Shown in pieces: positions 9,059 to 26,414 of a stretch of 64,000 nt of DNA. Every line of letters begins with the position of its first letter. The first letter of the stretch is position 1. The DNA is from an uncultured Litoreibacter sp. (GTDB lineage Bacteria > Pseudomonadota > Alphaproteobacteria > Rhodobacterales > Rhodobacteraceae). Under the pieces are notes generated by a model. It searched no databases and had not been told where the DNA came from. It saw only the letters and a program-made list of their open reading frames with translations. The stretch lies in the NCBI GenBank assembly GCA_947504205.1, contig CANNGL010000002.1, forward strand, positions 124,001 through 188,000, given 5' to 3'. The position numbers and the translations under genes are program-made.

Positions 9059-10060
9059 CTATTGTCTGGGTTTCAGCGTGCCACGATCGATAATCTTGCA
9101 AGGGAACAGGCGGGCTTCGGGGTAGCGGTCAGGTTCTTCGAGCATGGCGACCATCAGTTCAACGGAGGACGAGATAATCTGACGGATTGGTTGGCGGATT
9201 GTTGTCAGGTTGATGTTCTGCCAGCCTGCCATTTCCATATCGTTGAGACCGATCAGGCCGATATCCTCGGGGACGGACAGACCGAAATCCTTGATCGCGG
9301 ACAGCGCGCCGATGGACAGAACGTCATCGCCACAGAAATAAGCCCCGGCCCGGTGACCCTGTTTGAGCAGGCGGGTCATCTCCTTGCGACCTGCATCGAA
9401 GGAGTAATCTTCGGCAAAGGAGTGACTGGTGCTGATCTTGAAATGGCGGGCCATCTCGTCGGAGAAGCCTGCGAGACGATCCTGCGTCGAGGTCGCTTTT
9501 TCCGGACCACCCAGAAACGCCACAGAGTCGTAGCCGCGCTCGACCAGTTCGCGGGCGGCCATGCGACCGCATTCGCGGTTGTCGATGCCGACCACGTGAA
9601 CCTCTGGTGCGCTGGCATGGCGACCAAAGCTGTGCACGACCGGCACGCCTGCGTCACGGAAGGCCTTGGCGAAGCCGACTGGCAGGGTCGAGGAGGCCAC
9701 GACCACGCCATCGACTGAGTATTGTTGCAGCATCCGCACGGAATTGTCCGGGTCGACCTCGTCCGACAGGTTCACCAGAAGCGGGCGCAAACCGCGATCC
9801 TGCAAGCCACGGGTGAACAGATCGAAGACTTCGAGGAAAATCGGGTTGTGAAAGTTGTTCGACACAAGACCGATCAACTTGGTGCGCCGCGTTGTCAGCG
9901 ACCGGGCGAGGAAGTTCGGGCTGTAGCCCAATTCCTTGGCTGCCTTTTCAACCTTGCGGCGCATTTTTTCGGAGACCGAAGCGCCATCTGTGAAGGTGCG
10001 AGACACGGCTGAGGTCGAGACCCCTGCCCGTTCTGCCACGTCCTTTAAAGTTGCCGCCAT
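9059..10060 (-). CDS. LacI-family transcriptional regulator of the adjacent sugar transporter
   Basis: This is a 333-residue repressor. The helix-turn-helix ATLKDVAERAGVSTSAVSRTF is at the extreme N-terminus, then the hinge KAAKELGYSPNFLARSL, then a periplasmic-binding-protein-like effector domain ending around TTIRQPIRQI. The ATG at 10060 is chosen because it directly precedes the helix-turn-helix; the open frame to 10129 would run over the operator. It is divergent from the sugar ABC operon. The 18-bp palindrome between them (10113-10130) is identical to one between iolD and iolG, which suggests this repressor controls both and itself. The likely inducer is an inositol or another substrate of the transporter (inferred). 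Confidence 0.9.
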   Translation of the reverse strand: MAATLKDVAERAGVSTSAVSRTFTDGASVSEKMRRKVEKAAKELGYSPNFLARSLTTRRTKLIGLVSNNFHNPIFLEVFDLFTRGLQDRGLRPLLVNLSDEVDPDNSVRMLQQYSVDGVVVASSTLPVGFAKAFRDAGVPVVHSFGRHASAPEVHVVGIDNRECGRMAARELVERGYDSVAFLGGPEKATSTQDRLAGFSDEMARHFKISTSHSFAEDYSFDAGRKEMTRLLKQGHRAGAYFCGDDVLSIGALSAIKDFGLSVPEDIGLIGLNDMEMAGWQNINLTTIRQPIRQIISSSVELMVAMLEEPDRYPEARLFPCKIIDRGTLKPRQ

Positions 10061-10112
10061 AGCCTCGTCCCTCTCGACGCCTTGGCTTAGAGTATGAAAA
10101 AGCTCGGAGCAA

Positions 10113-10130
10113 TTTGCAACCGGTTGCAAA
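10113..10130. promoter_or_regulatory. LacI-family operator, identical to the iol site
   Basis: TTTGCAACCGGTTGCAAA lies 52 bp before the lacI ATG and 87 bp before the ATG of the sugar-binding protein. It is the same 18-mer as at 1316-1333, which links the two loci. The central ACCGGT core is common in LacI-family sites. Confidence 0.8.
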
Positions 10131-10217
10131 AATTCGGCATGTGTGCTTTTGTGTGAGTCGAAGTGGCGGGTTTCGCCTTTTCAGAACAAAGATCCAAAGA
10201 TCTACTGGGAGGAGATC

Positions 10218-11171
10218 ATGAAAACATTCTTCAAAGGCCTGGCAGTTGCAGCGGTTGCGGCGATGCCGTTCACCACGACAAGTGCATCGGCCGATGGTCA
10301 CGGCGATCTGAGCTACGTGCTGGTGAGCCATGCGCCTGACAGCGACACTTGGTGGAACACGATCAAGAACGGTATTGCGTTGGCTGGCGAACAGGTCGGT
10401 GTCAGCGTTGAATATCGCAACCCGCCCACCGGCGATATCGCTGATATGGCGCGCATCATTGATCAGGCGGCTGCCTCTGGCCCGGACGGGATCATCACAA
10501 CCCTGGCCGATTTTGACGTGCTCAAAGGCCCAATCATGAATGCGGTCGATCAGGGCATCGACGTCATCATCATGAACACAGGCACACCAGAGCAAGCCCG
10601 CGAAGTGGGTGCGCTTATGTATGTTGGTCAGCCTGAATATGATGCTGGTTTTGCCGCTGGTCAGCGTGCGAAAGGCGAAGGCGTTACGAAGTTTCTTTGC
10701 GTGAACCACGCCATTCAGCAGCCAACAGTTGGCGAGCGTTGCCGCGGTTATGCCGACGGTCTTGGCATCGATCTGGGCGACGCGATGATGGATTCAGGTA
10801 CTGACCCATCGGAAATCAAGAACAAGGTTCTGGCCTATCTGTCCGCCAATACCGACGTTGACGGCATCCTGACCCTTGGTCCGGTATCTGCTGACCCAAC
10901 CATTGCCGCACTGCAAGAAAACGGCATGGCCGGTGACATTCACTTCGGCACGTTCGACCTTGGCGAAGAGATCGTCAAAGGCATCAAGGGTGACATCATC
11001 AAGTGGGGCATTGACCAGCAGCCATTCCTGCAGGCCTATATGCCTGTCGTGATCCTGGCCAACTGGGACCGCTATGGCGTGCTTCCGGGCAACAACATCA
11101 ACTCGGGCCCGGGCTTTGTGACTAAAGACGGCCTTGCGAAAGTTGAAGAATTCGCTGGCGAATACCGCTAA
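10218..11171 (+). CDS. Sugar ABC transporter substrate-binding protein (CUT2 type)
   Basis: This is a 317-residue periplasmic binding protein with a signal peptide (MKTFFKGLAVAAVAAMPFTT, cleavage near ASA-DG). The start at 10218 follows GGGAGGAG. The fold is of the ribose/galactose-binding type, with visible motifs HAPDSDTWWNTIKNGI, DGIITTLADFD, VGQPEYDAGFAAGQRA and FGTFDLGEEIVKGI. It is the first gene of a three-gene transporter and is followed by a strong hairpin, so it may be made in excess over the permease and ATPase. Given the operator shared with iolD/iolG, inositol is a reasonable substrate, but fructose or ribose cannot be excluded because the other subunits resemble FrcC and FrcA. 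Confidence 0.88.
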   Translation: MKTFFKGLAVAAVAAMPFTTTSASADGHGDLSYVLVSHAPDSDTWWNTIKNGIALAGEQVGVSVEYRNPPTGDIADMARIIDQAAASGPDGIITTLADFDVLKGPIMNAVDQGIDVIIMNTGTPEQAREVGALMYVGQPEYDAGFAAGQRAKGEGVTKFLCVNHAIQQPTVGERCRGYADGLGIDLGDAMMDSGTDPSEIKNKVLAYLSANTDVDGILTLGPVSADPTIAALQENGMAGDIHFGTFDLGEEIVKGIKGDIIKWGIDQQPFLQAYMPVVILANWDRYGVLPGNNINSGPGFVTKDGLAKVEEFAGEYR

Positions 11172-11185
11172 GCGACAAAAGCCAA

Positions 11186-11217
11186 GGGCGGCCCTGCAAA
11201 GTGGCCGCCCTTTTTTT
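11186..11217 (+). terminator. Intra-operon rho-independent terminator/attenuator
   Basis: GGGCGGCC (11186-11193) pairs perfectly with GGCCGCCC (11203-11210) and is followed by seven T. It lies between the binding-protein gene and the permease gene of one transporter, so partial read-through would set a high binding-protein to permease ratio. Confidence 0.85.
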
Positions 11218-11244
11218 CTCTGATTTCTAGCCGGGAGAGCCTAA

Positions 11245-12357
11245 ATGGCTGATACGTCTCAGACGGACGAACGCGTCAAAGAGATATCCGCGTTCCGAAA
11301 AGCCATGATCCGACCCGAACTGGGCGGGATTGTCGGCACTGTGGCCGTCTTTACCCTGTTTGCCCTTTTCGCCTTCGATAGCGGCATGTTCCAGGCGCAG
11401 GGCGTGATGAACTGGTCGATTGTATCAGCGCAGTTCATGATCATTGCGGTGGGGGCTTGCCTGTTGATGATCGCTGGCGAGTTTGATCTCTCGGTGGGTT
11501 CGATGATTGGCTTTGCGGGCATGATGATCGCCGTTTTCGGCGTGGTTTTGGCATGGCCGATGTGGATCGCCATCATCATGACATTCGTCATCTGTTGCAC
11601 GCTTGGGGCGTTAAACGGCTGGATCGTTGTGCGCACGGGCTTGCCCAGCTTTATTGTGACGCTGGCCTTCCTGTTCATCCTGCGGGGCTTCACGATCTAC
11701 ATTCCGCAAACCATCGAGCGCAAAACCATCATCGGTGGCATCCGCGACGCGGCCGAAGGGGATTGGCTGGGCGCGATTTTTGGCGGCAAGATCGGGCAAC
11801 CGGTGTTTCAGTGGCTGGGCGATGCGGGGATTATCGGCGTGTTCGAGCGCGGCTCGCGCGCCGGGCAACCGGTGGTTGACGGCATACCGATGCTGATCGT
11901 CTGGGCAATTCTGCTAATCATCTTCGGCCATGTCGTGCTGACGAAAACGCGGTTCGGCAACTGGATCTTCGCTGCAGGCGGTGATGCCGAGGCTGCACGA
12001 AACTCAGGCGTGCCGGTCAACAAGGTTAAGATCCTGATGTTCGTCTTTACGGCCTTCTGTGCCACGGTTTTCGCGACCTGTCAGGTGATGGAGTTCGGTT
12101 CAGCCGGGGCTGATCGGGGTCTTCTGAAAGAGTTCGAGGCGATCATTGCCGTGGTGATCGGCGGAGCGCTTTTGACGGGCGGATATGGCTCGGTTCTGGG
12201 GGCGGCGTTGGGCGCGTTGATCTTCGGAGTTGTACAGCAGGGCTTGTTCTTTGCCGGTGTTGAATCAAGTTTGTTCCGCGTATTTCTGGGCGTGATCCTT
12301 TTGGCGGCGGTGATCCTGAACACCTATATTCGCCGCATCATTACGGGGGAGCGTTGA
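11245..12357 (+). CDS. Sugar ABC transporter permease (FrcC/IatP-like)
   Basis: This is a 370-residue inner-membrane permease of the CUT2 (branched-chain-like) family with about 8-10 hydrophobic segments. Family motifs visible are [16 protein letters not shown] after the second helix, [18 protein letters not shown], and near the end [27 protein letters not shown] split across helices. A periplasmic insert between about residues 150 and 210 ([13 protein letters not shown] onward) is as seen in FrcC-type permeases. It starts 73 bp after the binding-protein stop, past a terminator-like hairpin, and ends 1 bp before the ATPase ATG. Confidence 0.88.
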
Positions 12358-12358
12358 G

Positions 12359-13138
12359 ATGACTGAACCCATCATTCAGATGAAGAATATCGAGAAGCAT
12401 TTCGGTTCGGTCATTGCCTTGGCCGGTGTGTCGGTCGATGTGATTCCGGGCGAATGCCACTGCCTTTTGGGCGATAATGGTGCAGGCAAATCGACCTTCA
12501 TCAAAACCATGTCGGGCGTGCACAAGCCAACGGCGGGAGAGATCATCTTCGAGGGCAAGCCCCTGGATTTCGCGGATCCGCGCGACGCGATGGCCGCAGG
12601 CATCGCTACGGTGCACCAGCATTTGTCGATGATCCCGCTGATGTCAGTCAGCCGGAACTTCTTCATGGGAAATGAGCCTGTAAAGAAGATCGCGGGCATT
12701 CCGTTTTTCGATCATGATTATGCCAATCGCGTCACCATGGAAGAGATGCGCTCGATGGGGATCAACCTGCGCGGTCCGGATCAGGCCGTCGGAACATTGT
12801 CGGGCGGTGAACGTCAGACGGTGGCGATCGCCCGTGCGGTGCATTTCGGGGCGAAAGTTCTGATCCTGGACGAGCCGACATCAGCGCTTGGAGTGCGGCA
12901 AACCTCAAACGTTCTGGCGACCATCGACAAGGTACGCAAACAGGGCATCGCGGTGGTCTTCATCACCCACAATGTGCGTCATGCTATGGCCGTAGGTGAT
13001 CGGTTTACCGTTCTGAACCGAGGTCAGACCCTTGGCACCGCGCTGAAGGGCGAGATCACACCCGAAGAACTGCAAGACATGATGGCAGGCGGTCAGGAAA
13101 TGGCCCAGCTTGAAGGCAGCCTCGGCGGGACGGTGTAA
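12359..13138 (+). CDS. Sugar ABC transporter ATPase (single-domain, FrcA-like)
   Basis: This is a 259-residue cytoplasmic ATPase. Walker A is GDNGAGKST, the signature is LSGGE, Walker B is [12 protein letters not shown] and the switch histidine lies in FITHN. Most CUT2 ATPases carry two fused nucleotide-binding domains of about 500 residues in total. This one has a single domain, as in the rhizobial fructose transporter FrcA, so it presumably works as a homodimer with the permease. Its ATG is 1 bp after the permease stop, implying translational coupling. A terminator-like hairpin follows at 13158-13187. Confidence 0.9.

Positions 13139-13839: not shown

Positions 13840-13845
<6 letters not shown>
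13189..13845 (+). CDS. DUF2461 family protein
   Basis: This is a 218-residue cytoplasmic protein of the conserved DUF2461 family (TIGR02453), function unknown. Family hallmarks visible are the N-terminal [18 protein letters not shown], the central [20 protein letters not shown] and [18 protein letters not shown]. The length matches the usual 210-230 residues. It is not obviously related to the sugar transporters on either side. Its 3' end overlaps the convergent MalK-type ATPase gene by 6 bp. Confidence 0.88.
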
Positions 13846-14885
<1,040 letters not shown>

Positions 14886-14886
<1 letters not shown>

Positions 14887-16127
14887 CAGTGCCTCCCTGC
14901 CCATGCGAGCCAGACGGCCGCGGTCCACGTGAAGGAGTTGCCACCGGCGGGATCCCCATTGGTGGGGTCAAAATATTCAGCGAACCCAAAGGTGGAAATA
15001 AGTTGCGCCGTCGCATCGCGCAAAGCGTGGCCTTGCGATTGGTTCATCTCTTCCAGACCCACGCCGATCAGCATGTTCATCACAGCCCAAGTCGGGCCGC
15101 GCCAATAGCGTTTCGCATCGAATTTCGGGCTGGTCGGATCATGACTGGGCACCGGATAGGCCGCCGCGTCCATGATCCGGTCAAGCTGGGCACTCATTTC
15201 CGGTCGCGCGATGCCGGCATACCAGCACAGGAAGGACGCGTTCGATACGCAACCTGCGAATGTATCCGTCTTGGCGTTGCGGCTGTCATAACAGCGCAGG
15301 TCCGGGTTCCAGAGCGTTTCGGCACCCGCTTCAAGAGTGGCGATATCGTCTGGCAGGCTGGAGGTGTCGAGCCCAAGCTCTGTTCCGATCGCAAGCAAGT
15401 CGCGCGCGGTGCGCAGCAGGGTGAAGGTCATGGTGGGATCTGCAATACGGAACGGGTTTTCCTCCAGCAGCCTTGCTTCGTTCCACCCCAGCCTGTTGCC
15501 AAGCTGGACCAGCCAGATGTAACGATCGTAGTCGTACTTGGTCGGGCGCATTTCCGGGTTCACATGGCCGGTGTCACGGCGGGTGTAGTCGCCAACCCCT
15601 TGTGGATCGATCATCGCCATGGCGCTGTCCCAGTCTGGCGCGTTGTCACGGCCCGCCTCCCAAGGATGGGTGATGCAGACCGCCCCGCGATCCAGTCGCC
15701 AATCCATGAACCAGCGCACCCAGGCCAGCATCTTTGGGTAAAGCGCGCGCAGTCGGGCTTCCCCCGCAGCGCGGTCCTTGGCCCAGATCATCCGGGCAAA
15801 ACTGGGTGCAATGGGAGGCTGGGAGATACCGGAAGAAGGTACAGGCCCGGTGCCGCCCCAGACATCCGGCCCCGGATAGTAACCGGGATCGGGTTTGTGA
15901 AACAGGATATGGGGCACCATGCCGTTGGACCATTGGCCGGAGAACAGCGTTTCAAGCTCCTGCCATGCGCGGTCGATGTCGAATTCCGCGAAACCGAGTG
16001 CGGCAAAGGCACTGTCCCAGTTCCACTGATAGGGATAAAGCCCCTCGGTCGGGATGGTGTAGCCGCCCCGGTCATTTTGCACGAGGATATTGCGCGCTTC
16101 GCGCTCCATGCTGGTTTGCTGGGTCAT
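14886..16127 (-). CDS. GH63-like (alpha/alpha)6 glycoside hydrolase, glucosylglycerate/mannosylglycerate hydrolase type
   Basis: This is a 413-residue enzyme without a signal peptide, so it should act on imported substrate in the cytoplasm. Family patterns are [18 protein letters not shown] at about residues 33-50, [11 protein letters not shown] at 64-74, [14 protein letters not shown] at 154-167 and [11 protein letters not shown] in the C-terminal half. These match the MGH/GGH clan (GH63) of retaining-fold six-hairpin hydrolases. The Asp in the GRDN segment is a candidate general acid (from family knowledge). Its position inside a sugar ABC operon suggests that the imported glycoside, possibly glucosylglycerate, mannosylglycerate or a related compatible solute, is cleaved here. 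The start is 4 bp after the upstream permease stop. Confidence 0.8.
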
Positions 16128-16131
16128 GGGA

Positions 16132-17346
16132 TCATCCTTTCACAGAGCCTGCGGTCAGGCCCTTGGTCATGAATTTCTCAAGTCCGAGGAACAGCACCAT
16201 AATCGGAAGTGTCGCAATCACGGCACCTGCCATCAGATGCTGGCGCGGGATCTCGGACGAATTGAGCATGGCAACGCCTCGGGTCAGGGTGAATTTTGAC
16301 GGATCGTCGAGCAGCATGAAGGCCAGAAGGAACTCGTTCCAGGCAATCATGAAGACATAGAGCGAGACGGAAGCCAGTGCCGGCAGCGACAGCGGCAGCG
16401 TGATTTTCCAGATCACGGCAAGACGGGACAGACCGTCCATGAGACCGGCCTCTTCGACCTCGCCGGGCAACCCGCGGAAATAGCCCTGCAACATGTAAAG
16501 CGCGACAGGGATCGTGGTGACAGGATAGATCATCACGAGGCCGAGGATAGAGTTCCGCAATCCGGTCATGGAAAAGGCGATATAGATCGGCAGAGCCAGC
16601 ACGATCATCGGGACCATGTAGATCAACAGGATCGAGCGGGAGAATGCAGCGCGGCCCCGAAACTTCAGGCGCGCCACAGCGTAGGCGCCCGGCACGCTGA
16701 AGAGCAGCGTGATCAACACGGTCAGGACAGAGACGTAGAAGGACGTCCAAAGATAGCCGCCGAAGCCGAAATCCGCGAACAGTTCGGAATAGCTGCGGAA
16801 CAACCCCCAGCCCTTGTCCCAGTCTAGAGAGAAATCCAGCGGGTTTTGCAAAAGCGCCTGCTGCGATTTCAGCGATGTCATGACCATCACGTAGAAAGGG
16901 ATCAGAACGATGGCGGTAAAGAATATATACCCAAAGCCTGTGAGAAACCGGATCACCGCCTCTTCGAACTCATGTCGGCTGAGCGCGGCTTTTGGCATCC
17001 CCGACAGGATCGCCTCCATCGACCAGATGAAGATGCCCCCAAGCGCGAGGGCTGCAAGGGAGCGTGACCAGACAGACGCGCTCTCCCCGATGATCATTGG
17101 CCCCATGCCAAGAAGAACCAGCCCGGCCAGTGCGACTGCGCCCATGACCGCACCCGGAAGATCGCCGATGCGTTGCGAAATTCCGAAACCGATGATTGCA
17201 CCCCAAACCAAACTCCAGAGAATGGCGGGACGGAACGGATCGCCCGTGGCAAATGACATCGCGACTGCAATTATCGTCGACAGGATCACCAACCAGAGTG
17301 CCCCCAAAACCGGCCCCGTTACATATCCGTAGCGCAGGTAGCTCAT
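16132..17346 (-). CDS. MalG-type sugar ABC permease with extra N-terminal membrane domain
   Basis: This is a 404-residue inner-membrane permease. The normal MalG-like body begins near residue 130 (RFLTGFGYIFFTAIVLIPFY) and includes the coupling-helix EAA motif in EEAGLMDGLSRLAVIWKITL followed by PLSLPAL. In front are about 125 extra residues with four predicted membrane spans (roughly 11-31, 40-57, 63-87, 92-112). CUT1 permeases of this type are usually about 280 residues, so the extension is unusual. The ATG at 17346 has GAAGGGGG upstream. It pairs with the permease at 17444; the gap between them holds two perfect hairpins. Confidence 0.85.
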   Translation of the reverse strand: MSYLRYGYVTGPVLGALWLVILSTIIAVAMSFATGDPFRPAILWSLVWGAIIGFGISQRIGDLPGAVMGAVALAGLVLLGMGPMIIGESASVWSRSLAALALGGIFIWSMEAILSGMPKAALSRHEFEEAVIRFLTGFGYIFFTAIVLIPFYVMVMTSLKSQQALLQNPLDFSLDWDKGWGLFRSYSELFADFGFGGYLWTSFYVSVLTVLITLLFSVPGAYAVARLKFRGRAAFSRSILLIYMVPMIVLALPIYIAFSMTGLRNSILGLVMIYPVTTIPVALYMLQGYFRGLPGEVEEAGLMDGLSRLAVIWKITLPLSLPALASVSLYVFMIAWNEFLLAFMLLDDPSKFTLTRGVAMLNSSEIPRQHLMAGAVIATLPIMVLFLGLEKFMTKGLTAGSVKG

Positions 17347-17443: not shown

Positions 17444-18679
17444 TCATAATCCTTCCTCCCGGCTGACATATTTGAAGAAGAAGACTGAAAAGAGGATCAG
17501 GCAGGCGAAGATAACAACGGCGACTGCAGCCCCTGCCCCAATGTTGGAGATGGCGAAGGCCTGCTCGTAGACATTCACTGTCAAGGTACGAGTGCCCGCG
17601 TTGCCGCCGGTCAGCAGGAAGATGTCGTCGAACTTGTTGAAGGTCCAGATAAAGCGCAGCAGGAACAGGACGCTGAGAATGCCGAGCAACTGCGGCATCG
17701 AGAGATACCAGAATTTCTGGAAGGGACTGGCGCCGTCCATATCCGCAGCCTCATACATATCGGTGTCGATGGATTGCATCCGGGCCAGAATGAACAGGAA
17801 CGACAGCGGGAAATACCGCCAGATTTCGAAGATCGTCACCATGATCAAGGCGAGCGGGCGCTGACCGAAAAAATTGATCGCCTCCTGGGTGACGCCCATC
17901 TGGATCAGCAAGGCGTTGGCCGAGCCTGAAAACGGATCGAAAAGCGTGATCCAGGTGAAGGCTACGGCGATCACGGGTGCGACATAAGGAAAAAGATAGA
18001 GGCCCCGCAGGATACCTTGGCCCTTGAAGCTCTTGTTCAGAAGCATGGCGGCGAAAAGCCCGAAGACCAACGCCCCGACCGTGCCGAAAACGGTGTAAAA
18101 CAGCGTCACCCAGAGGACGAACCAGAATTCGTCGCCATCAAAGATACGGGCAAAATTTTCCAGCGAAAACTCGCTATTGGTCAGAATTGAATCAGAGATT
18201 GCCGATGCATCCGGTTTGCTGCCTTCCGCGGCATCTTCCAGCGCGTCGGGGTCGCCCTGAAGGGTTACGTCGATCTGAAAGCGATCCCGCCATCCCCCTT
18301 CGACATCGCCAAAGGCACAGGTCAATGTCTGATCGTCCAGCGCACAGGCCTCCGGTAGGGGACCGGCGATCGACAGGCCATCTGGCAGCGTATCGACGAA
18401 ACGGACATCTCCCAGGGGTTTGTCCTGTGAGGAGTTGCGGATGCGGTAATCCAGTTGATAGGCCCCATCCCGACCCCGCAGGCTTTCGCGCAGAACAGGC
18501 GCAGGTGGGCGCAGATCGGCCAGACCAACAGGCTTGAAGCTGATCCAGAAGATCGCAAGCAAGGGCAGTATCACAACCAGCGAAACGCTGAGGATGGTGG
18601 GGAGCAGCAGCCCCCATGCGAGGCGCGCCTCGCGTTTGGCGAGTGCGCCGCGACCAGTGGGTGGGGTCACGGATGTCAT
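17444..18679 (-). CDS. MalF-type sugar ABC permease with DUF11-like periplasmic insert
   Basis: This is a 411-residue inner-membrane permease (ATG at 18679; an in-frame TTG at 18715 is less likely). The first membrane span is at about residues 21-47, and the coupling-helix EAA motif is in YEAADMDGASPFQKFWYLSM. Between spans 1 and 2 lies a loop of roughly 130 residues. Within it, residues about 61-143 read like a DUF11/conserved-repeat beta-sandwich: YQLDYRIRNSS, VRFVDTLPDGLSI, a Cys-containing LTCAFGDVEGG and FQIDVTLQG. Insertions at this place are known in MalF (the P2 loop, which contacts the binding protein), but a DUF11-like one is unusual. The two cysteines (EACALDD, LTCAF) could pair. 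It follows the binding-protein gene by 54 bp. Confidence 0.85.
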   Translation of the reverse strand: MTSVTPPTGRGALAKREARLAWGLLLPTILSVSLVVILPLLAIFWISFKPVGLADLRPPAPVLRESLRGRDGAYQLDYRIRNSSQDKPLGDVRFVDTLPDGLSIAGPLPEACALDDQTLTCAFGDVEGGWRDRFQIDVTLQGDPDALEDAAEGSKPDASAISDSILTNSEFSLENFARIFDGDEFWFVLWVTLFYTVFGTVGALVFGLFAAMLLNKSFKGQGILRGLYLFPYVAPVIAVAFTWITLFDPFSGSANALLIQMGVTQEAINFFGQRPLALIMVTIFEIWRYFPLSFLFILARMQSIDTDMYEAADMDGASPFQKFWYLSMPQLLGILSVLFLLRFIWTFNKFDDIFLLTGGNAGTRTLTVNVYEQAFAISNIGAGAAVAVVIFACLILFSVFFFKYVSREEGL

Positions 18680-18733: not shown

Positions 18734-20095
18734 TTAGTTGACCTTGGACAACTCGTCGTTCATCGCCGCAACCGCAGCGGCCGCATCAATTTCGTCGTCG
18801 ATATACTGACGCACGACGCGATTGATCGCTTGGCTGTTGATGATCTTGGAGGCAAGCGACAGCTGTCCTTCGCTGACACCCCAGCGCTGGGCCACATCAA
18901 GACCACCGACGATCTCGTCAATCATCGATTGCTCGTAAAGCTCACCCAGTGGCGCTTTGCGATCCACACCCACGGGCAGTTCAGCCCAGGCTTTCGAGAA
19001 CTTTGCAGGATCTTCCGCATTGCCGCGCCGCACCGGGAACTTGCCTTCTGGTGCGATCGACAGGGTCGAGGTGTAGCCGTCATCCATGGAGAACTTCACG
19101 AACTCCATGGCCGCGTCTGTATCCGCATCGGACGTGATGCCAAAGTAGCGCACGTCGCCCCACGCCGCGCCTGATGGGTTTGAGGGACCCGAGAAGGTCG
19201 TGACAATACCAGTCGCCGCGGCCAGATCGCGGGTGGTTGGATCATCGTTGATCGTAGGCGGGGCGCTGTCGCGCAGACCGGCCAGCTCATCAAGAATGAA
19301 CGGCGACCAGATAATCATCGCGGCCTGCCCGGCAAAATAGAGTTCGCGAGACTGCTTCCAATAAAGCTCACCCGGCGGAGATGCTTTGGCGATTGCCTTA
19401 TAGAAATCCAGGACTTCGGTTGTCGCAGCTTCGTCGAGCGCTTTGAAGCCATTTTCGTCTACGGGTGAGACACCATTGGCGAGGAACACATGTTCCAAGA
19501 CCTGGCTCATAAAGTTCTCGTCCACCTTGGTGGCCGCGACGAACCCATACATCTCTGGCGGGTTATGCAGTTTTTCGATCGCAGCCAGAACGTTGGCGTA
19601 GGAGGTCGGGGCTTCAAGGCCCGCCTCGTCAAACTTGTCCTTGCGGTAGACAACCATCTGGGTCCAGCCATCAACAGGAACGGCGGCATAGCCGTCGTCG
19701 GTTGCAGCCATTGTCAGAGCGCCGGAGGCGAAGGTGTTGTCGCCCAGTCCGTTGACAACTTCGGTCGCGGCAACTGTGTCCAGGATTCCGGCCTCGGTCC
19801 AAGGCAGTGCATATTGCAGCGGGTGGTAGATCACGTCAGGCAGATCGCCCGCAGCAAATGCGGCCGTTGCACGCGTGCCGAGATCGGTTTCGGTGACCGG
19901 GATCACTTCAACCTCGGTGCCGGTCGCAGCTTTGAAAGCGTCGGCCATTTCCTGTTGCTTTGCCAGACGCTCCGGTTGTTCTTCAGTTGTCCAGAAGCGG
20001 ATTGTATCCGCCGAGACGCCCATGGCAGACATCGCTACAGCAAACGAGGCCCCCAGAAGCAGGCGACCGGTGGTGGTCTTTGCGTGAATGGTCAT
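18734..20095 (-). CDS. Extracellular sugar-binding protein (CUT1 ABC transporter)
   Basis: This is a 453-residue periplasmic solute-binding protein of the MalE/UgpB type. It has a signal peptide ending around MGVSA-DTIRFW, then the family start TIRFWTTEEQPERLAKQQEMA. Further family patterns are FAAGDLPDVIYHPLQYALPW, VPVDGWTQMVVYRKD and YFAGQAAMIIWSPF. The ATG at 20095 has GGGAGGA just upstream; the open frame to 20176 lies inside lacI. It is the second gene of the lacI-led operon, 19 bp after the lacI stop, and should deliver the glycoside to the two permeases downstream. Confidence 0.92.
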   Translation of the reverse strand: MTIHAKTTTGRLLLGASFAVAMSAMGVSADTIRFWTTEEQPERLAKQQEMADAFKAATGTEVEVIPVTETDLGTRATAAFAAGDLPDVIYHPLQYALPWTEAGILDTVAATEVVNGLGDNTFASGALTMAATDDGYAAVPVDGWTQMVVYRKDKFDEAGLEAPTSYANVLAAIEKLHNPPEMYGFVAATKVDENFMSQVLEHVFLANGVSPVDENGFKALDEAATTEVLDFYKAIAKASPPGELYWKQSRELYFAGQAAMIIWSPFILDELAGLRDSAPPTINDDPTTRDLAAATGIVTTFSGPSNPSGAAWGDVRYFGITSDADTDAAMEFVKFSMDDGYTSTLSIAPEGKFPVRRGNAEDPAKFSKAWAELPVGVDRKAPLGELYEQSMIDEIVGGLDVAQRWGVSEGQLSLASKIINSQAINRVVRQYIDDEIDAAAAVAAMNDELSKVN

Positions 20096-20114: not shown

Positions 20115-21254
20115 TCACCTGTTTTTCGCTGCGATATATGCAGCAAGCTCGGATGGAGATCGCCGGGGCGGCCCATCGGATTGGCGGGGCACGAGCGTAG
20201 CTGGAGCCAGTTCGCGCAAAGTGTCGACTGAAGCGTCTTCCCGGATTTGACTGATCAACATTTGGGCAAGGCGCTCCCCTGCCCGTCGGCTGTCGACCGA
20301 AAACGTTGTCAGGGCCGGGCGTGCAAATACACCCTCCGGGATGCCGTCATAGGCGATGATCGAAAGGTCTTTGCCCAGCTCAAGGCCAAGCTTTTCACAA
20401 GCGACATAGGCGCCCATTGCGGCCTCATCCGTCGAAAACACGATGGCGGTGGGCGGCATGTCGGCGCGCATCAGCGCTTCGGTCGCTTCTGCACCATCGG
20501 TGGCCAGCCGGACGTTCTCGCGGATCAGATCCTGTGAGTAGGTCAGATCGAGCGCTCTGAGCCCATCGCAATACCCTTGCTTGCGCAGGTGGCTGTAATT
20601 GTATTCCGAGCCACCGCCCACAAACGCAATGCGCCGGTGGCCAAAGCCATGCAGACGCAGCACCGCATCGCGCATCGCATCTTCCCCGGAGATATCAAAC
20701 CAGCTTGCATTGTCCTGATACGTCTTGTCTCCGAAGCCGCTGCGCCCGAACAGAATGAACGGAACGTTCATGGCGTGTAGAAATTCGACCCTTGGGTCTG
20801 CAACGCGGGTGCGCGGCAGAATGAAGCCATCCGCCTTGTGCTCGTCCACCAGCCGCCCAAGTGTTTCCTGCATATGGGCATCGGATTTTGCGGTGGCCAC
20901 AGCAAGGGTCCAGCCCAGTTCCGTCGCCGCTTGGGTCACGCCCGCCAGAAAGTCTGTCAGGAACGGAGCGTGGGCGTCATGTTCGTCGATCTGCAAGACA
21001 AGACCCAGTGAGCGGACGCGCCCGGTCCGTATGGCCTGAGCGTGACTGAGCGGACGGTAGCCCAGACGTTCCGCCGCCCTTTGCACCCGAAGACGGGTCG
21101 TCTCGGAGATGTCGGAATAGCCATTCAATGCCCGCGAAACGGTGCCCTTGGTCAAGCCGAGCGTCGAGGCCAGATAGGTAATCGTCACACGACCCGAGCG
21201 CGCGGCTCTGGGGCGCTGTGCGGATGCGTTTGATGATGGTTGAGCAGAGGGCAT
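20115..21254 (-). CDS. LacI-family regulator, first gene of the glycoside operon
   Basis: This is a regulator of 379 residues with the ATG at 21254. It has a nonstandard N-terminal tail of about 22 residues (MPSAQPSSNASAQRP) before the helix-turn-helix VTITYLASTLGLTKGTVSRAL, then the hinge QRAAERLGYRPLSHAQAI and a LacI effector domain containing FGHRRIAFVGG. The open frame extends to 21380, but that would place a 16-bp palindromic operator (21272-21287) inside the gene and there is no ribosome site there. Being the first gene of the transporter operon, it probably represses its own transcript. The inducer is presumably the imported glycoside or its product. Confidence 0.87.
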   Translation of the reverse strand: MPSAQPSSNASAQRPRAARSGRVTITYLASTLGLTKGTVSRALNGYSDISETTRLRVQRAAERLGYRPLSHAQAIRTGRVRSLGLVLQIDEHDAHAPFLTDFLAGVTQAATELGWTLAVATAKSDAHMQETLGRLVDEHKADGFILPRTRVADPRVEFLHAMNVPFILFGRSGFGDKTYQDNASWFDISGEDAMRDAVLRLHGFGHRRIAFVGGGSEYNYSHLRKQGYCDGLRALDLTYSQDLIRENVRLATDGAEATEALMRADMPPTAIVFSTDEAAMGAYVACEKLGLELGKDLSIIAYDGIPEGVFARPALTTFSVDSRRAGERLAQMLISQIREDASVDTLRELAPATLVPRQSDGPPRRSPSELAAYIAAKNR

Positions 21255-21271
21255 GTGCGTTAGCAGAAGCT

Positions 21272-21287
21272 CCGAAACCGGTTTCGG
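21272..21287. promoter_or_regulatory. LacI-type operator, perfect 16-bp palindrome
   Basis: CCGAAACCGGTTTCGG is fully palindromic with the ACCGGT core of LacI-family sites. It lies 17 bp before the lacI ATG at 21254 and 91 bp before the divergent LysR ATG. It differs from the 1316 and 10113 sites, so a different repressor is expected, most simply the LacI encoded next to it. Confidence 0.7.
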
Positions 21288-21378
21288 CAAGGGTTTTTTC
21301 CGCTGCATCGCAGCACAAAGCAGATTGGGCGCCGATTGAGGTTGCGTCTCAGGCAGGCCCGGCTCTAGCGTGCGGCCC

Positions 21379-22251
21379 ATGTCGATGTCGCTTCTGGAAA
21401 CACTGATCTGCGTTGCAGATAAGGGCAGCTTTGCTGCTGCCGCCGATCAGCTTGGGGTTAGTCAGGCCGCCATTGGACAACAGATGAAGCGGCTGGAAGA
21501 AAAAAGTGGTCAGACCCTGTTTGACCGCAGCACAGGGCGGCCGGTTTTGACCAAATCCGGCTTGGATCTGGTCGCACGGTCGCGGGTGCTGGCTCAGGAG
21601 TATCGCGAAATCCTGTCTCCGATTCTCGAGGATCAGGGGCTCAGCGGAGAGCTGAAACTGGGGGCGGTGCCTTCCACTTTGACCGAGCTTGTTCCCGCTG
21701 CCATCACCCGGCTGGTGGCCGCCAATCCGGATTTGCAACTTCGGATTGTATCGGGCTTGTCAGTGGACCTTCTGGGGCAGATCGAACGGGGTGATCTGGA
21801 CGCGGCCCTGACCTCCCATCCCGGTACATTGCAAGCGGGTCTGGTCTGGCAGGAACTGGCCCATGAGGCGTTGGTTCTGATCTCTTCCGAACCGGTGGAC
21901 ACGGAGCGCCTGAAGGATGTGCTGCGCGAGCGGCCATATATTCGCCACACGCGCCGGTCGGATGCTGGGCGGCTGGCGGAGAATTGGCTGGCGCAGCAGC
22001 GCATCCAGCTGAGACCTGCGATGGAACTGGAGTCGCTCGAAGCGGTGGCAACGATGGTCTCCCACGGCTTGGGCGTTGCCTTGGTGCCGGATATCTGCGT
22101 GCCGAACTATCTGTTTCGCAACCTGCATCGTGTGCCTTTGGGCGCCCGTGCAGGGGGGCGGACACTTGGCTTGTTGAGCCGGACACAAGATCGGTTGACG
22201 CAGGAGCTTGTCGGGCAGCTTGCTGATGTCATTTTATCCGCGCAAAGGTAA
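21379..22251 (+). CDS. LysR-family regulator
   Basis: This is a 290-residue regulator (a GTG at 21370 would add three residues). The N-terminal winged helix-turn-helix is SLLETLICVADKGSFAAAAD then QLGVSQAAIGQQMKRLEEKS, and a LysR substrate-binding domain follows (GELKLGAVPSTLTELVPAAI). It is divergent from the lacI-led operon and directly upstream of comD in the same direction, with a 96-bp gap. Control of the sulfopyruvate/sulfolactate genes is therefore plausible but unproven. A weak or missing ribosome site makes the exact start uncertain. Confidence 0.85.
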   Translation: MSMSLLETLICVADKGSFAAAADQLGVSQAAIGQQMKRLEEKSGQTLFDRSTGRPVLTKSGLDLVARSRVLAQEYREILSPILEDQGLSGELKLGAVPSTLTELVPAAITRLVAANPDLQLRIVSGLSVDLLGQIERGDLDAALTSHPGTLQAGLVWQELAHEALVLISSEPVDTERLKDVLRERPYIRHTRRSDAGRLAENWLAQQRIQLRPAMELESLEAVATMVSHGLGVALVPDICVPNYLFRNLHRVPLGARAGGRTLGLLSRTQDRLTQELVGQLADVILSAQR

Positions 22252-22347
22252 AATTGAACTTTACCGAAGTGAAGAAATCTTTGTCTTGAGTATTGTACTT
22301 GTTTAGGCCATCAGCCCTGCATACCGTTGCCAGAGGAGGCCAGCCCC

Positions 22348-22845
22348 ATGTCGGTCAATGACAAGATTGTCGCCGATTTCGTCAAACATGACGTCGAATT
22401 TATCACCACAGTGCCCTGCAAACAGTTGGGTGGCGTGATTGATGCCGTTGAGAAGCATCCTGATATTTATCACATCCCGTCGAACAAGGAAGACGAAGGC
22501 ATGGGCCTGTGCGCCGGTGCATATATGGGTGGCAAACGCTCGGCAATCATCATGCAGAACACCGCCATCGGTGTGACGATCAACACGCTGGTTACGCTGA
22601 TCCAATATTACCGTATGCCACTGCCGATGCTGATCTCCTACCGCGGAGAGCTTCTGGAACCCGTGGCCTGTCAGGTCGAAATGGCCGTGCACACCAAGGC
22701 CCTGCTGGCACAGTTGAATATTCCGACTTACCACTTCCACAAACAAGATGATGTCGAGGAATTCGATCGCATCCTGCAATACACCTACATGTCCAACAAG
22801 CCGGTCGCCATTCTGACCGATGCATCCTTCTGGGGAGGCTACTGA
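22348..22845 (+). CDS. comD: Sulfopyruvate decarboxylase alpha subunit
   Basis: This is a 165-residue pyrimidine-binding half of a thiamine-diphosphate decarboxylase. The start at 22348 follows AGAGGAGG. Motifs include VEFITTVPCKQLGG, the catalytic-glutamate segment SNKEDEGMGLCAGAYMGGK and MQNTAIGVTINTLVTL. It pairs with the TPP-binding half encoded 1 bp downstream. Together they convert 3-sulfopyruvate to sulfoacetaldehyde and CO2. In roseobacters this serves breakdown of C3 sulfonates such as sulfolactate and cysteate, rather than the coenzyme M synthesis for which the genes were first named. Confidence 0.9.
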   Translation: MSVNDKIVADFVKHDVEFITTVPCKQLGGVIDAVEKHPDIYHIPSNKEDEGMGLCAGAYMGGKRSAIIMQNTAIGVTINTLVTLIQYYRMPLPMLISYRGELLEPVACQVEMAVHTKALLAQLNIPTYHFHKQDDVEEFDRILQYTYMSNKPVAILTDASFWGGY

Positions 22846-22846
22846 T

Positions 22847-23410
22847 ATGATCCGTTCTGAAGTTCTGAAAACATTGGTTCCGGTCCTGAGCGACCATCTG
22901 ACGATCATGAACATCGGCCTGCCAAGCCAGGAAATGCACATGATGGATGATCAGCCCACAAACTTTTACATGTTGGGCACTATGGGTCTGGCGTCGTCGA
23001 TCGGCTTGGGTGTCGCGTTGGCGCAGAAGGAAAAAGTCGTGGCCATTGATGGCGACGGTTCGATCCTGACCAACATGGGCACCCTGCCCACCATCGCCAA
23101 CAACGTGGCCGACAACTTCGTGCTCGTGATCATCGACAACGGTTCTTACGGCTCCACCGGGGACCAGCCGACCTACGCTGGCAAGAAAACCGAACTGGCC
23201 GATTGCGCAAAAGCCGCTGGATGCGAGAATGTCGTGATCTGCCAGGCCGAAGAGGCCGCTGATACGCTTCAAGCTGCTCTGGACAGCGACAAGATGACCA
23301 TCATGGTGGTCAAATGTGAGAGCGGCAATATCAAGGTGCCGGTGATCACCATGGACCCGGTCGTGATCAAAGACCGTTTCATGAAAACAATCGCTGCGCG
23401 GAACGCTTGA
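22847..23410 (+). CDS. comE: Sulfopyruvate decarboxylase beta subunit
   Basis: This is a 187-residue thiamine-diphosphate-binding half. The cofactor motif runs from GDGSILTNMGTLPTI to IIDNGSYGSTGDQPT (the GDGS to N pattern). Substrate-side segments are NIGLPSQEMHMMDDQPTNFY and LGTMGLASSIGLGVAL. Its ATG is 1 bp after the comD stop, and its stop is 1 bp before the dehydrogenase ATG, so the three genes form a tightly coupled unit. Confidence 0.9.
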   Translation: MIRSEVLKTLVPVLSDHLTIMNIGLPSQEMHMMDDQPTNFYMLGTMGLASSIGLGVALAQKEKVVAIDGDGSILTNMGTLPTIANNVADNFVLVIIDNGSYGSTGDQPTYAGKKTELADCAKAAGCENVVICQAEEAADTLQAALDSDKMTIMVVKCESGNIKVPVITMDPVVIKDRFMKTIAARNA

Positions 23411-23411
23411 G

Positions 23412-24344
23412 ATGAAGCGGGTGGTGATTTCTGAATTCATGGACGAGCGTGCCGTCGAAGATTTGGCGCGCGACCATGAGGTGCTTTATGATCCGGCTCT
23501 GGTCGATGACCCGGACCGGTTGAGCGCGGAAATCGCCACCGCTGACGCAATTATAGTGCGCAACCGGACGCAAGTTCGCGGCGCATTGCTTGAGGCGGCA
23601 CGCAATCTGAAAGCTGTCGGCCGGTTGGGCGTGGGTCTGGACAATATCGACCTTGAAGCCTGTGCAGCACGCAGTATTTCGGTGCATCCCGCCTCGGGTG
23701 CGAATGACCAATCGGTGGCCGAATATGTCCTGACATCCGCCGCTATTTTGTTGCGACGCTCATACACTGGGTTTGACGCAATGGTTGCTGGCGACTGGCC
23801 GCGACAATCCATGGGAACCGGCGGCGAGATGGGTGATCGCGTTATGGGGCTGGTGGGCATGGGCTCCATCGCGCGCGAAACGGCGGCACGTGCCAAGGGG
23901 TTGTCGATGGTCATTCATGGCTATGACCCGTTTGTTCCGGCAGATGATCCCATATGGGCTTCTGTTCATCGTCATGAGGGGCTGGACACATTGCTGGCAG
24001 AGGCGGATGTGATCAGTCTGCATGTCCCGTTGACCGAGGGTACGCGACATCTGATCGGCGCGGACGCGCTGGCCTCAATGAAATCAGGTGCTGTGTTGGT
24101 AAATGCCGCGCGGGGTGGCGTCGTGGACGAAGCCGCCTTAGCCAATGCTCTGGCATCTGGGCAAATTGCGGGCGCAGCTTTGGACGTCTTTGAGACCGAA
24201 CCGCTTACGGCGGAGGCGGGCGAGAAATTCAAAGGTCTTGGCAACATTATCCTGACGCCTCATATCGCCGGCGTGACCGCGGATTCGAACGTGCGCGTTT
24301 CGGCAGTGACGGTGGCCAATGTCCGGGCAGCGCTATCTGACTAG
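23412..24344 (+). CDS. slcC: D-isomer-type 2-hydroxyacid dehydrogenase, probably (S)-sulfolactate dehydrogenase
   Basis: This is a 310-residue NAD-dependent dehydrogenase of the phosphoglycerate-dehydrogenase fold. Visible features are GRLGVGLDNIDL, the nucleotide-binding VGMGSIARETAARAKGL, the catalytic Arg in NAARGGVVDEAAL, the Glu in FETEPL and the His in LTPHIAGVT. Lying directly behind comDE, it most likely oxidises sulfolactate to sulfopyruvate, the role of SlcC. The family fold alone would also fit other 2-hydroxyacids. Its 3' end overlaps the convergent regulator gene by 4 bp. Confidence 0.8.
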   Translation: MKRVVISEFMDERAVEDLARDHEVLYDPALVDDPDRLSAEIATADAIIVRNRTQVRGALLEAARNLKAVGRLGVGLDNIDLEACAARSISVHPASGANDQSVAEYVLTSAAILLRRSYTGFDAMVAGDWPRQSMGTGGEMGDRVMGLVGMGSIARETAARAKGLSMVIHGYDPFVPADDPIWASVHRHEGLDTLLAEADVISLHVPLTEGTRHLIGADALASMKSGAVLVNAARGGVVDEAALANALASGQIAGAALDVFETEPLTAEAGEKFKGLGNIILTPHIAGVTADSNVRVSAVTVANVRAALSD

Positions 24345-25583: not shown

Positions 25584-26414
25584 ATGAAAGCACATTTGAG
25601 AGGGTGCGTATTGGCATCCGCGCTGATTTTTACAGCCGGGATTGGTCAGGCCGCAACCATAGGATATAGCGACTCTGGAGGGCGCGGGGCATCATACGAC
25701 ACGCGCGCCACTGCAGATGTCAGCGGCATTGATCTGACGGAAACTGGATCGAACACACGCACTTTCGAAGATACAAGCGCCAGCGCTTTGAAGTTCAACT
25801 ATTTCGACGCCAGCCTCGGGACATTGACCAGAGTTGATATCGACTACACGCTAACCTCACTTGGCAATAACTCGCTGTCCCACCTGCGCAGGTCCTGCAA
25901 GACTTTCACGACGGCAGCCTGTTCCAGCCATGTCGTTACCGCCAGCGCATCGGTGGGTTATGGCATCACCATCGATCCCTACGTCACATTGCTGCCAGGC
26001 GCTCCCGGCTATCAAGATCCGACAGAACTGGGTGTTGGTGCTGCCGCGAATATCAGCAACCCTACAACTGCACGGGGCATCTTCAGACCGAGAACAAGCG
26101 CGAGCCTGTCAATCACTGATGGTCAAGTCGCCAACTTTATCGGCACCGGTCTATTCGATATCCAACCGATATTCGTTATTCGCAACACAACGGACGTTTC
26201 CTGCCGCTCGCCAGTCACCGGCACTGACCTCACCGGGTGTTCCGGGGACACGCGCGTGACGTTTAACGCCAACTACCGCGTTAATGTAACCTATACCTAT
26301 GATGAGATTGTGGCGCCTCCTCCGGCGGTTCCGCTTCCAGCCGGACTACCTTTGTTGCTGACAGGGCTTTTGAGCCTCGGCTATTTTTCGCGGCGCGCGC
26401 TCAAAAAGACCTAG
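25584..26414 (+). CDS. Secreted VPLPA-CTERM sorting domain protein
   Basis: This is a 276-residue exported protein with an N-terminal signal peptide (LASALIFTAGIGQAA) and a C-terminal sorting tail: VPLPAGLPLLLTGLLSLGYF, then a basic RRALKK end. This tail matches the VPLPA-CTERM signal processed by an exosortase (XrtD class, from family knowledge). The mature part is rich in Ser, Thr and short strands and has four spaced cysteines in two pairs (SCKTFTTAACSS; SCRSPVTGTDLTGCSG). It is probably a surface or extracellular-matrix protein. It is a single gene followed by a strong terminator. Confidence 0.85.
   Translation: MKAHLRGCVLASALIFTAGIGQAATIGYSDSGGRGASYDTRATADVSGIDLTETGSNTRTFEDTSASALKFNYFDASLGTLTRVDIDYTLTSLGNNSLSHLRRSCKTFTTAACSSHVVTASASVGYGITIDPYVTLLPGAPGYQDPTELGVGAAANISNPTTARGIFRPRTSASLSITDGQVANFIGTGLFDIQPIFVIRNTTDVSCRSPVTGTDLTGCSGDTRVTFNANYRVNVTYTYDEIVAPPPAVPLPAGLPLLLTGLLSLGYFSRRALKKT

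Follow-up and report, generated by a model that had tools for sequence, protein, structure and literature searches.

In a contig of an uncultured Litoreibacter sp. (Rhodobacterales; GenBank assembly GCA_947504205.1, contig CANNGL010000002.1), the 64,000-nucleotide stretch that we analyzed (positions 124,001 to 188,000; the window) contains the operon of a CUT1-type ATP-binding cassette (ABC) sugar importer whose first permease carries a DUF11-like domain, predicted to be a β-sandwich, between its first two membrane spans (TM1 and TM2). The insert is conserved in a group of mostly marine bacteria. We put the odds at about one in two that it is a platform, acquired independently, on which the solute-binding protein (SBP) of the importer docks, a functional parallel of the P2 domain of MalF. 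The permease gene has the following features:

17444..18679, minus strand: permease 1, CUT1 sugar permease subunit 1 (MalF/UgpA type), 411 aa, identified by BPD_transp_1 and solved relatives.
18197..18499, minus strand: DUF11-like insert, a predicted β-sandwich at residues 61–161 of permease 1, between TM1 and TM2, identified by AlphaFold2 and by hhalign to DUF11/DUF7933.
18317..18346, minus strand: invariant cysteine pair C112/C121, a proposed disulfide across a β-hairpin, identified by alignment and predicted strands 112–115 and 118–126.

The frame at 17444–18679 is open over 411 residues and contains the strings quoted by the initial annotation, which had been made from the sequence letters. 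The C-terminal half of the protein is that of an ordinary CUT1 permease: Pfam BPD_transp_1 matches residues 204–407 with 60.9 bits (cut-off 26.4), the nearest solved relatives are 7cad_A and 8ja7_A (SugA) followed by 2r6g_F (MalF), and the EAA-x3-G coupling motif quoted in PMC3150292 is present toward the C terminus as EAADMDG at residues 310–316. An SBP, a second permease, and a MalK-type ATPase are encoded alongside, as in a CUT1 importer. Against the NCBIfam MalF equivalog the protein scored 68.7 bits, below the cut-off of 392, and both annotated records that we examined name the permeases of this importer simply sugar or carbohydrate ABC transporter permease.

The first two hydrophobic spans lie at residues 28–46 and 196–214, and the loop between them, P50 to N175, is 126 residues long, in keeping with the roughly 130 residues estimated from the letters. 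Among 57 CUT1 permeases, which were search hits rather than a random sample and were all measured alike, this loop was 125–130 residues in 22 insert-carrying permeases (carriers) and 15–21 residues in the 35 others, that of Nonomuraea among them, which lack the insert; there were no intermediates. AlphaFold2 predicts residues 61–160 to form a confident β-sandwich (block pLDDT, the predicted local distance difference test, 85–91) in a model of permease 1 that is otherwise poor (mean 62.2, predicted template modeling score 0.37), and the β-sandwich claim of the initial annotation is borne out at the level of prediction. The solved neighbors of the insert model are immunoglobulin (Ig)-like, and with differences of less than 1 Z counted as ties no one family stands out from this common sandwich. 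Searched at the sequence level against solved structures, the insert profile found nothing at E up to 5.

The relation to DUF11 emerges when families are compared. By hhalign, the insert family profile matches Pfam DUF11 (PF01345) with 95% probability and a score of 47.7, compared with a mean of 8.8 and maximum of 11.5 for 60 column shuffles and 9.7 for the reversed profile, and it matches DUF7933 (PF25564) with 94.7% probability; 29 of 30 sequences were used in the DUF11 comparison set, L180 being dropped for a stop codon, and at least one DUF7933 row (L185) was empty. The insert of permease 1 itself is below the Pfam gathering score for both families (14.5 versus 24.6 bits for DUF11 and 17.9 versus 26.5 for DUF7933). 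Five of the 10 orthologous inserts scanned exceed the DUF11 cut-off (L091, 33.9 bits; L080, 28.5; L074, 27.5; L005, 26.4; L038, 25.2), the remaining five reach at most 24.5 bits, and 64 of 75 match DUF11 at E up to 0.1. The feature described by the initial annotation is real and well conserved, and the domain family name and the MalF parallel given there are correct. Unlike the tandem DUF11 copies of secreted surface proteins, the insert occurs once, within the loop of a permease. Elsewhere in the same genome (G000:C2:492077-496633), a 4196-aa frame, a candidate giant surface protein, has two DUF11 matches.

The two spaced cysteines of the earlier reading, C112 and C121, are identical in all 109 aligned copies, as are R57 and N82. 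These copies are BLAST matches of at least 43% identity starting within the first 19 residues, and they include duplicates (L003/L033 and L004/L100) and the window itself (L001 and L111). On the predicted hairpin (strands 112–115 and 118–126), the cysteines would face one another, consistent with a C112–C121 disulfide.

Because the 109 copies were selected by a match starting near the N terminus, they cannot prove the insert universal, and we relied instead on related genomes and on a search with the permease core only. A permease 1 match of at least 57% identity occurs in 14 of 61 related genomes, the window's own being one of the 14, and it spans the insert in every case; the other matches listed have at most 39% identity and start at residue 161 or later. 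In the class-wide core-only search, all eight matches of at least 55% identity are carriers and all 14 matches of at most 41% have short loops. A phylogenetic tree of permease cores places the 22 carriers on one side of a single branch (support 100/96), and the carrier state changes once on this tree, compared with 17.6 times in shuffles. The split in the core search and the single branch indicate that the insert marks a transporter subfamily and is not a local oddity. It belongs firmly to that subfamily rather than being peculiar to the permease 1 gene, and a segment shared throughout the subfamily was among the outcomes that the initial annotation had itself named as refuting its proposal. 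The insert is absent from the 35 other CUT1 permeases measured.

A search with a profile built from the insert and the sequence on either side recovered one copy each in 8 of 289 class genomes and 9 of 299 phylum genomes, sets that overlap and include the window's own genome; all copies fall within the class, in open frames of 423–493 residues. Carrier contigs L077, L082, and L107, labeled Granulosicoccaceae, are all short metagenome-assembled pieces. In plasmid records, the insert used alone as a query matched five permeases; a hypothetical protein of Streptomyces also matched, at E 7e-3. The insert-less Nonomuraea permease adjoins the carriers on the core tree (98/90), followed by a pair of Halomarina and one other genome, on a side with long branches and with a root placed for drawing only; the Nonomuraea locus further encodes an SBP related at 37% and a portion of a hydrolase related at 39%. 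Most simply, the insert would have been gained once, within a system that exists also without it.

The other genes of the operon are as follows:

20115..21380, minus strand: regulator of the LacI family, first gene of the operon (Pfam LacI and Peripla_BP_3).
18734..20095, minus strand: SBP, 453 aa (Pfam SBP_bac_1, 80.7 bits; solved relatives include YcjN, 8vqk, E 3.4e-24).
16132..17346, minus strand: permease 2, CUT1 subunit 2 (MalG type), 404 aa, with an N-terminal extension of ~122 residues (BPD_transp_1 at 219–392; NCBIfam MalG model from residue 134).
16981..17346, minus strand: membrane extension of permease 2, residues 1–122, with three to four hydrophobic segments by hydropathy.
14886..16127, minus strand: glycoside hydrolase of mannosylglycerate/glucosylglycerate hydrolase type, 413 aa (PF22422, 367.8 bits; 2z07 and 6g3n).
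13840..14886, minus strand: MalK/UgpC-type ATPase (ABC_tran and TOBE_2; NF008653, 442.6 bits, cut-off 432).

This order (LacI regulator, SBP, permease 1 with the insert, permease 2, hydrolase, and MalK-type ATPase) is also seen in two annotated records and in other loci. The hydrolase aligns near full length with TTHA0978 of Thermus (2z07, E 2.6e-93) and with the mycobacterial glucosylglycerate hydrolase (6g3n, E 2.8e-56), and in the alignment to 6g3n the catalytic Asp and Glu, given as Asp182 and Glu419 for the mycobacterial enzyme in PMC6608630, are retained by motif and position. It differs in scoring 304.4 bits against the NCBIfam glucosylglycerate hydrolase model NF047898, below the cut-off of 550. 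Because the operon encodes such a hydrolase, the cargo is likely a glycosylglycerate-type solute, and the importer recurs in Rhodobacter-related genomes (14 of 61), probably for solutes of this kind. E. coli YcjM, encoded beside the SBP relative YcjN, presumably acts on glucosylglycerate. Among the 78 carrier loci extending as far as a MalK, 72 have a full hydrolase. The six without it (L061, L064, L069, L079, L091, and L105) are otherwise similar operons, which may therefore differ in their substrate or in how it is metabolized further; in the four of these six that were inspected, no frame of more than 150 residues lies between permease 2 and MalK.

We propose that an ancestor of this alphaproteobacterial importer subfamily gained one DUF11-family (Ig-like) β-sandwich in the TM1–TM2 loop of its CUT1 permease, most simply in a single event, and that the domain was retained. 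On the periplasmic side, the insert would sit at the permease rim, held together by one disulfide, and would provide an additional docking surface for the SBP during sugar delivery, after which the imported glycosylglycerate-type solute would be cleaved by the hydrolase of the operon.

Co-divergence of the insert with the SBP gives mild support for docking. The operon sets were thinned at an SBP distance of 0.05 (72 to 53, 35 to 32, and 94 to 72 operons). In the set of 53, insert distances correlated with SBP distances at 0.63, compared with 0.26–0.45 for six other regions, among them parts of the insert's own polypeptide, and the partial correlation with the insert, given the cores, was 0.54 for the SBP and 0.28 for the hydrolase. 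When 72 near operons were taken together, the insert–SBP correlation was 0.46 versus 0.20–0.36, with the SBP the top partner in 162 of 200 random halves. Several results weigh against this support. The lead of the SBP over permease 2 in the 72 near operons is not secure (5–95% range, −0.05 to 0.22). In 32 hold-out operons, the insert correlates with permease parts at 0.72–0.78 versus 0.58 for the SBP; the 23 near ones show no preference (SBP 0.41, others 0.36–0.45), and in the nine far ones the SBP reaches 0.79 versus 0.88–0.90 for the others. The co-divergence that the initial docking proposal would predict is thus specific in the 53 operons and not specific in the hold-out operons, and because of the latter we count it as weak. 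Co-divergence beyond that of the cores is likewise seen between the SBP and the hydrolase (partial r 0.32); contact is therefore not needed to produce a signal of this kind. At the level of sites, mutual information was weak (effective number 43): 0.87% of insert–SBP pairs lay above 3 SD, compared with 0.31–0.50% for other partners, while the highest single scores belonged to insert–hydrolase pairs, and residue-level covariation is too weak to use at this depth. Finally, the insert is not a requirement for docking, since an SBP is present in the systems of Nonomuraea and Halomarina, which lack the insert. A recombined tract spanning the SBP gene and the 5′ part of the permease gene is an alternative; against one contiguous tract, the TM1 segment between them tracks the core (r 0.67) rather than the insert (0.26), although at 46 residues that segment is short.

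The best surviving alternative, to which we give a clearly minor share of the probability, is that the insert serves mainly in assembly or stability, holding the permease pair together, perhaps with the permease 2 extension, or tethering the importer to an envelope component as DUF11 may do in surface proteins. The extension, scored as an open frame of at least 100 residues with at least two hydrophobic segments before the permease core, accompanies the insert in all 108 readable carriers (four hydrophobic segments in 80, three in 22, two in 4, and five in 2) and is absent from L126–L130, with both features absent from L126 (Nonomuraea) and L130 (Halomarina). By sequence, the window's copy of the extension finds three of the five plasmid records carrying the insert; no Pfam or NCBIfam match covers it, and it evolves faster than the insert (mean identity 0.384, 92 relatives). 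However, the two features could have arisen on the same branch, which makes their co-occurrence neither independent evidence nor proof of interaction. Once the cores are accounted for, insert and extension distances show only a weak link (partial r 0.10, p 0.06). Rather improbable, in our estimate, is a sugar-binding or ligand-sensing module at the permease mouth (ligand sensing had also been entertained by the initial annotation), which would concentrate or sense substrate independently of the SBP. Least probable is a tolerated passenger doing little in a permissive loop: the insert evolves fast, with a mean identity to the window of 0.435 versus 0.855 for the core (107 relatives), and one form of it is distributed as if exchanged, but a dispensable domain would be expected to be lost somewhere, whereas no insert-less permease was found at 55% core identity or above or among the 14 related genomes, and four residues, including both cysteines, are invariant.

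The form in question is a long insert with four extra residues near its start (L038, L080, L086, L089, L095, L097, L100, L110, and L125). It is one group in the insert tree, a single change that is partly circular since the label is insert length itself, and it requires four to seven changes on five other gene trees, one to four of them forced by well-supported branches. This scatter suggests that the insert has been exchanged between operons. Joining this to the docking reading, we tentatively entertain a broader account, less likely than not, in which a DUF11 module, of a kind found chiefly in long surface proteins, was recruited once into an ABC importer as a convergent second solution to the SBP docking of P2, came with the multi-helix extension of permease 2, and later moved from operon to operon separately from the transporter core.

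Other observations in the window, from inspection of the open reading frame list, include a neighboring import operon at 9059–13138, ribose-type by look, with a divergent LacI-like regulator, binding protein, permease, and ATPase, and, at 22327–24344, two frames resembling the subunits of a thiamine-dependent sulfopyruvate/phosphonopyruvate decarboxylase and, after them, a D-2-hydroxyacid dehydrogenase. The protein encoded at 25584–26414 (plus strand) looks secreted; its C-terminal part, with a VPLPAGLPLLLTG stretch and a basic end, resembles a VPLPA/PEP-CTERM sorting signal.

The importer resembles YcjNOP- and SugABC-type CUT1 importers in having an SBP, two permeases, and a MalK-type ATPase, with the SBP related to YcjN and permease 1 to SugA; permease 1 differs from ordinary CUT1 permeases in the length of the TM1–TM2 loop, YcjO and SugA lying outside the measured set. 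The insert resembles DUF11/DUF7933 modules in profile and, by prediction, in its β-sandwich, and differs from the copies listed in relatives, which are mostly in frames of more than 1,000 aa, in being one copy inside a transporter loop; a literature search for a DUF11 domain in ABC transporter permeases, by titles only, turned up no related title. Among type I importers, the standard example of an additional periplasmic domain is P2 of MalF. As in MalFGK2, a folded domain would directly precede a homologous permease core, which hhalign aligns with 99% probability from residue 175 of permease 1 and ~262 of MalF, and P2 likewise evolves faster than its core (0.35 versus 0.682 and 0.718 versus 0.897 in two MalF pairs). 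P2 is larger, spanning residues 91–271, and contacts MalE, according to PMC3150292, and the partner permease here carries an N-terminal membrane extension, unlike in the MalF system. Homology of the insert to P2 was rejected at the profile level (three MalF sequences; hhalign score 10.1, which is noise; probability 0.08%), and because there is no detectable profile relation, the insert, a different domain at the equivalent place, was probably acquired independently, as first proposed. A second, unrelated domain in the place of P2, together with insert-free relatives, lets one ask what such a domain adds to SBP docking.
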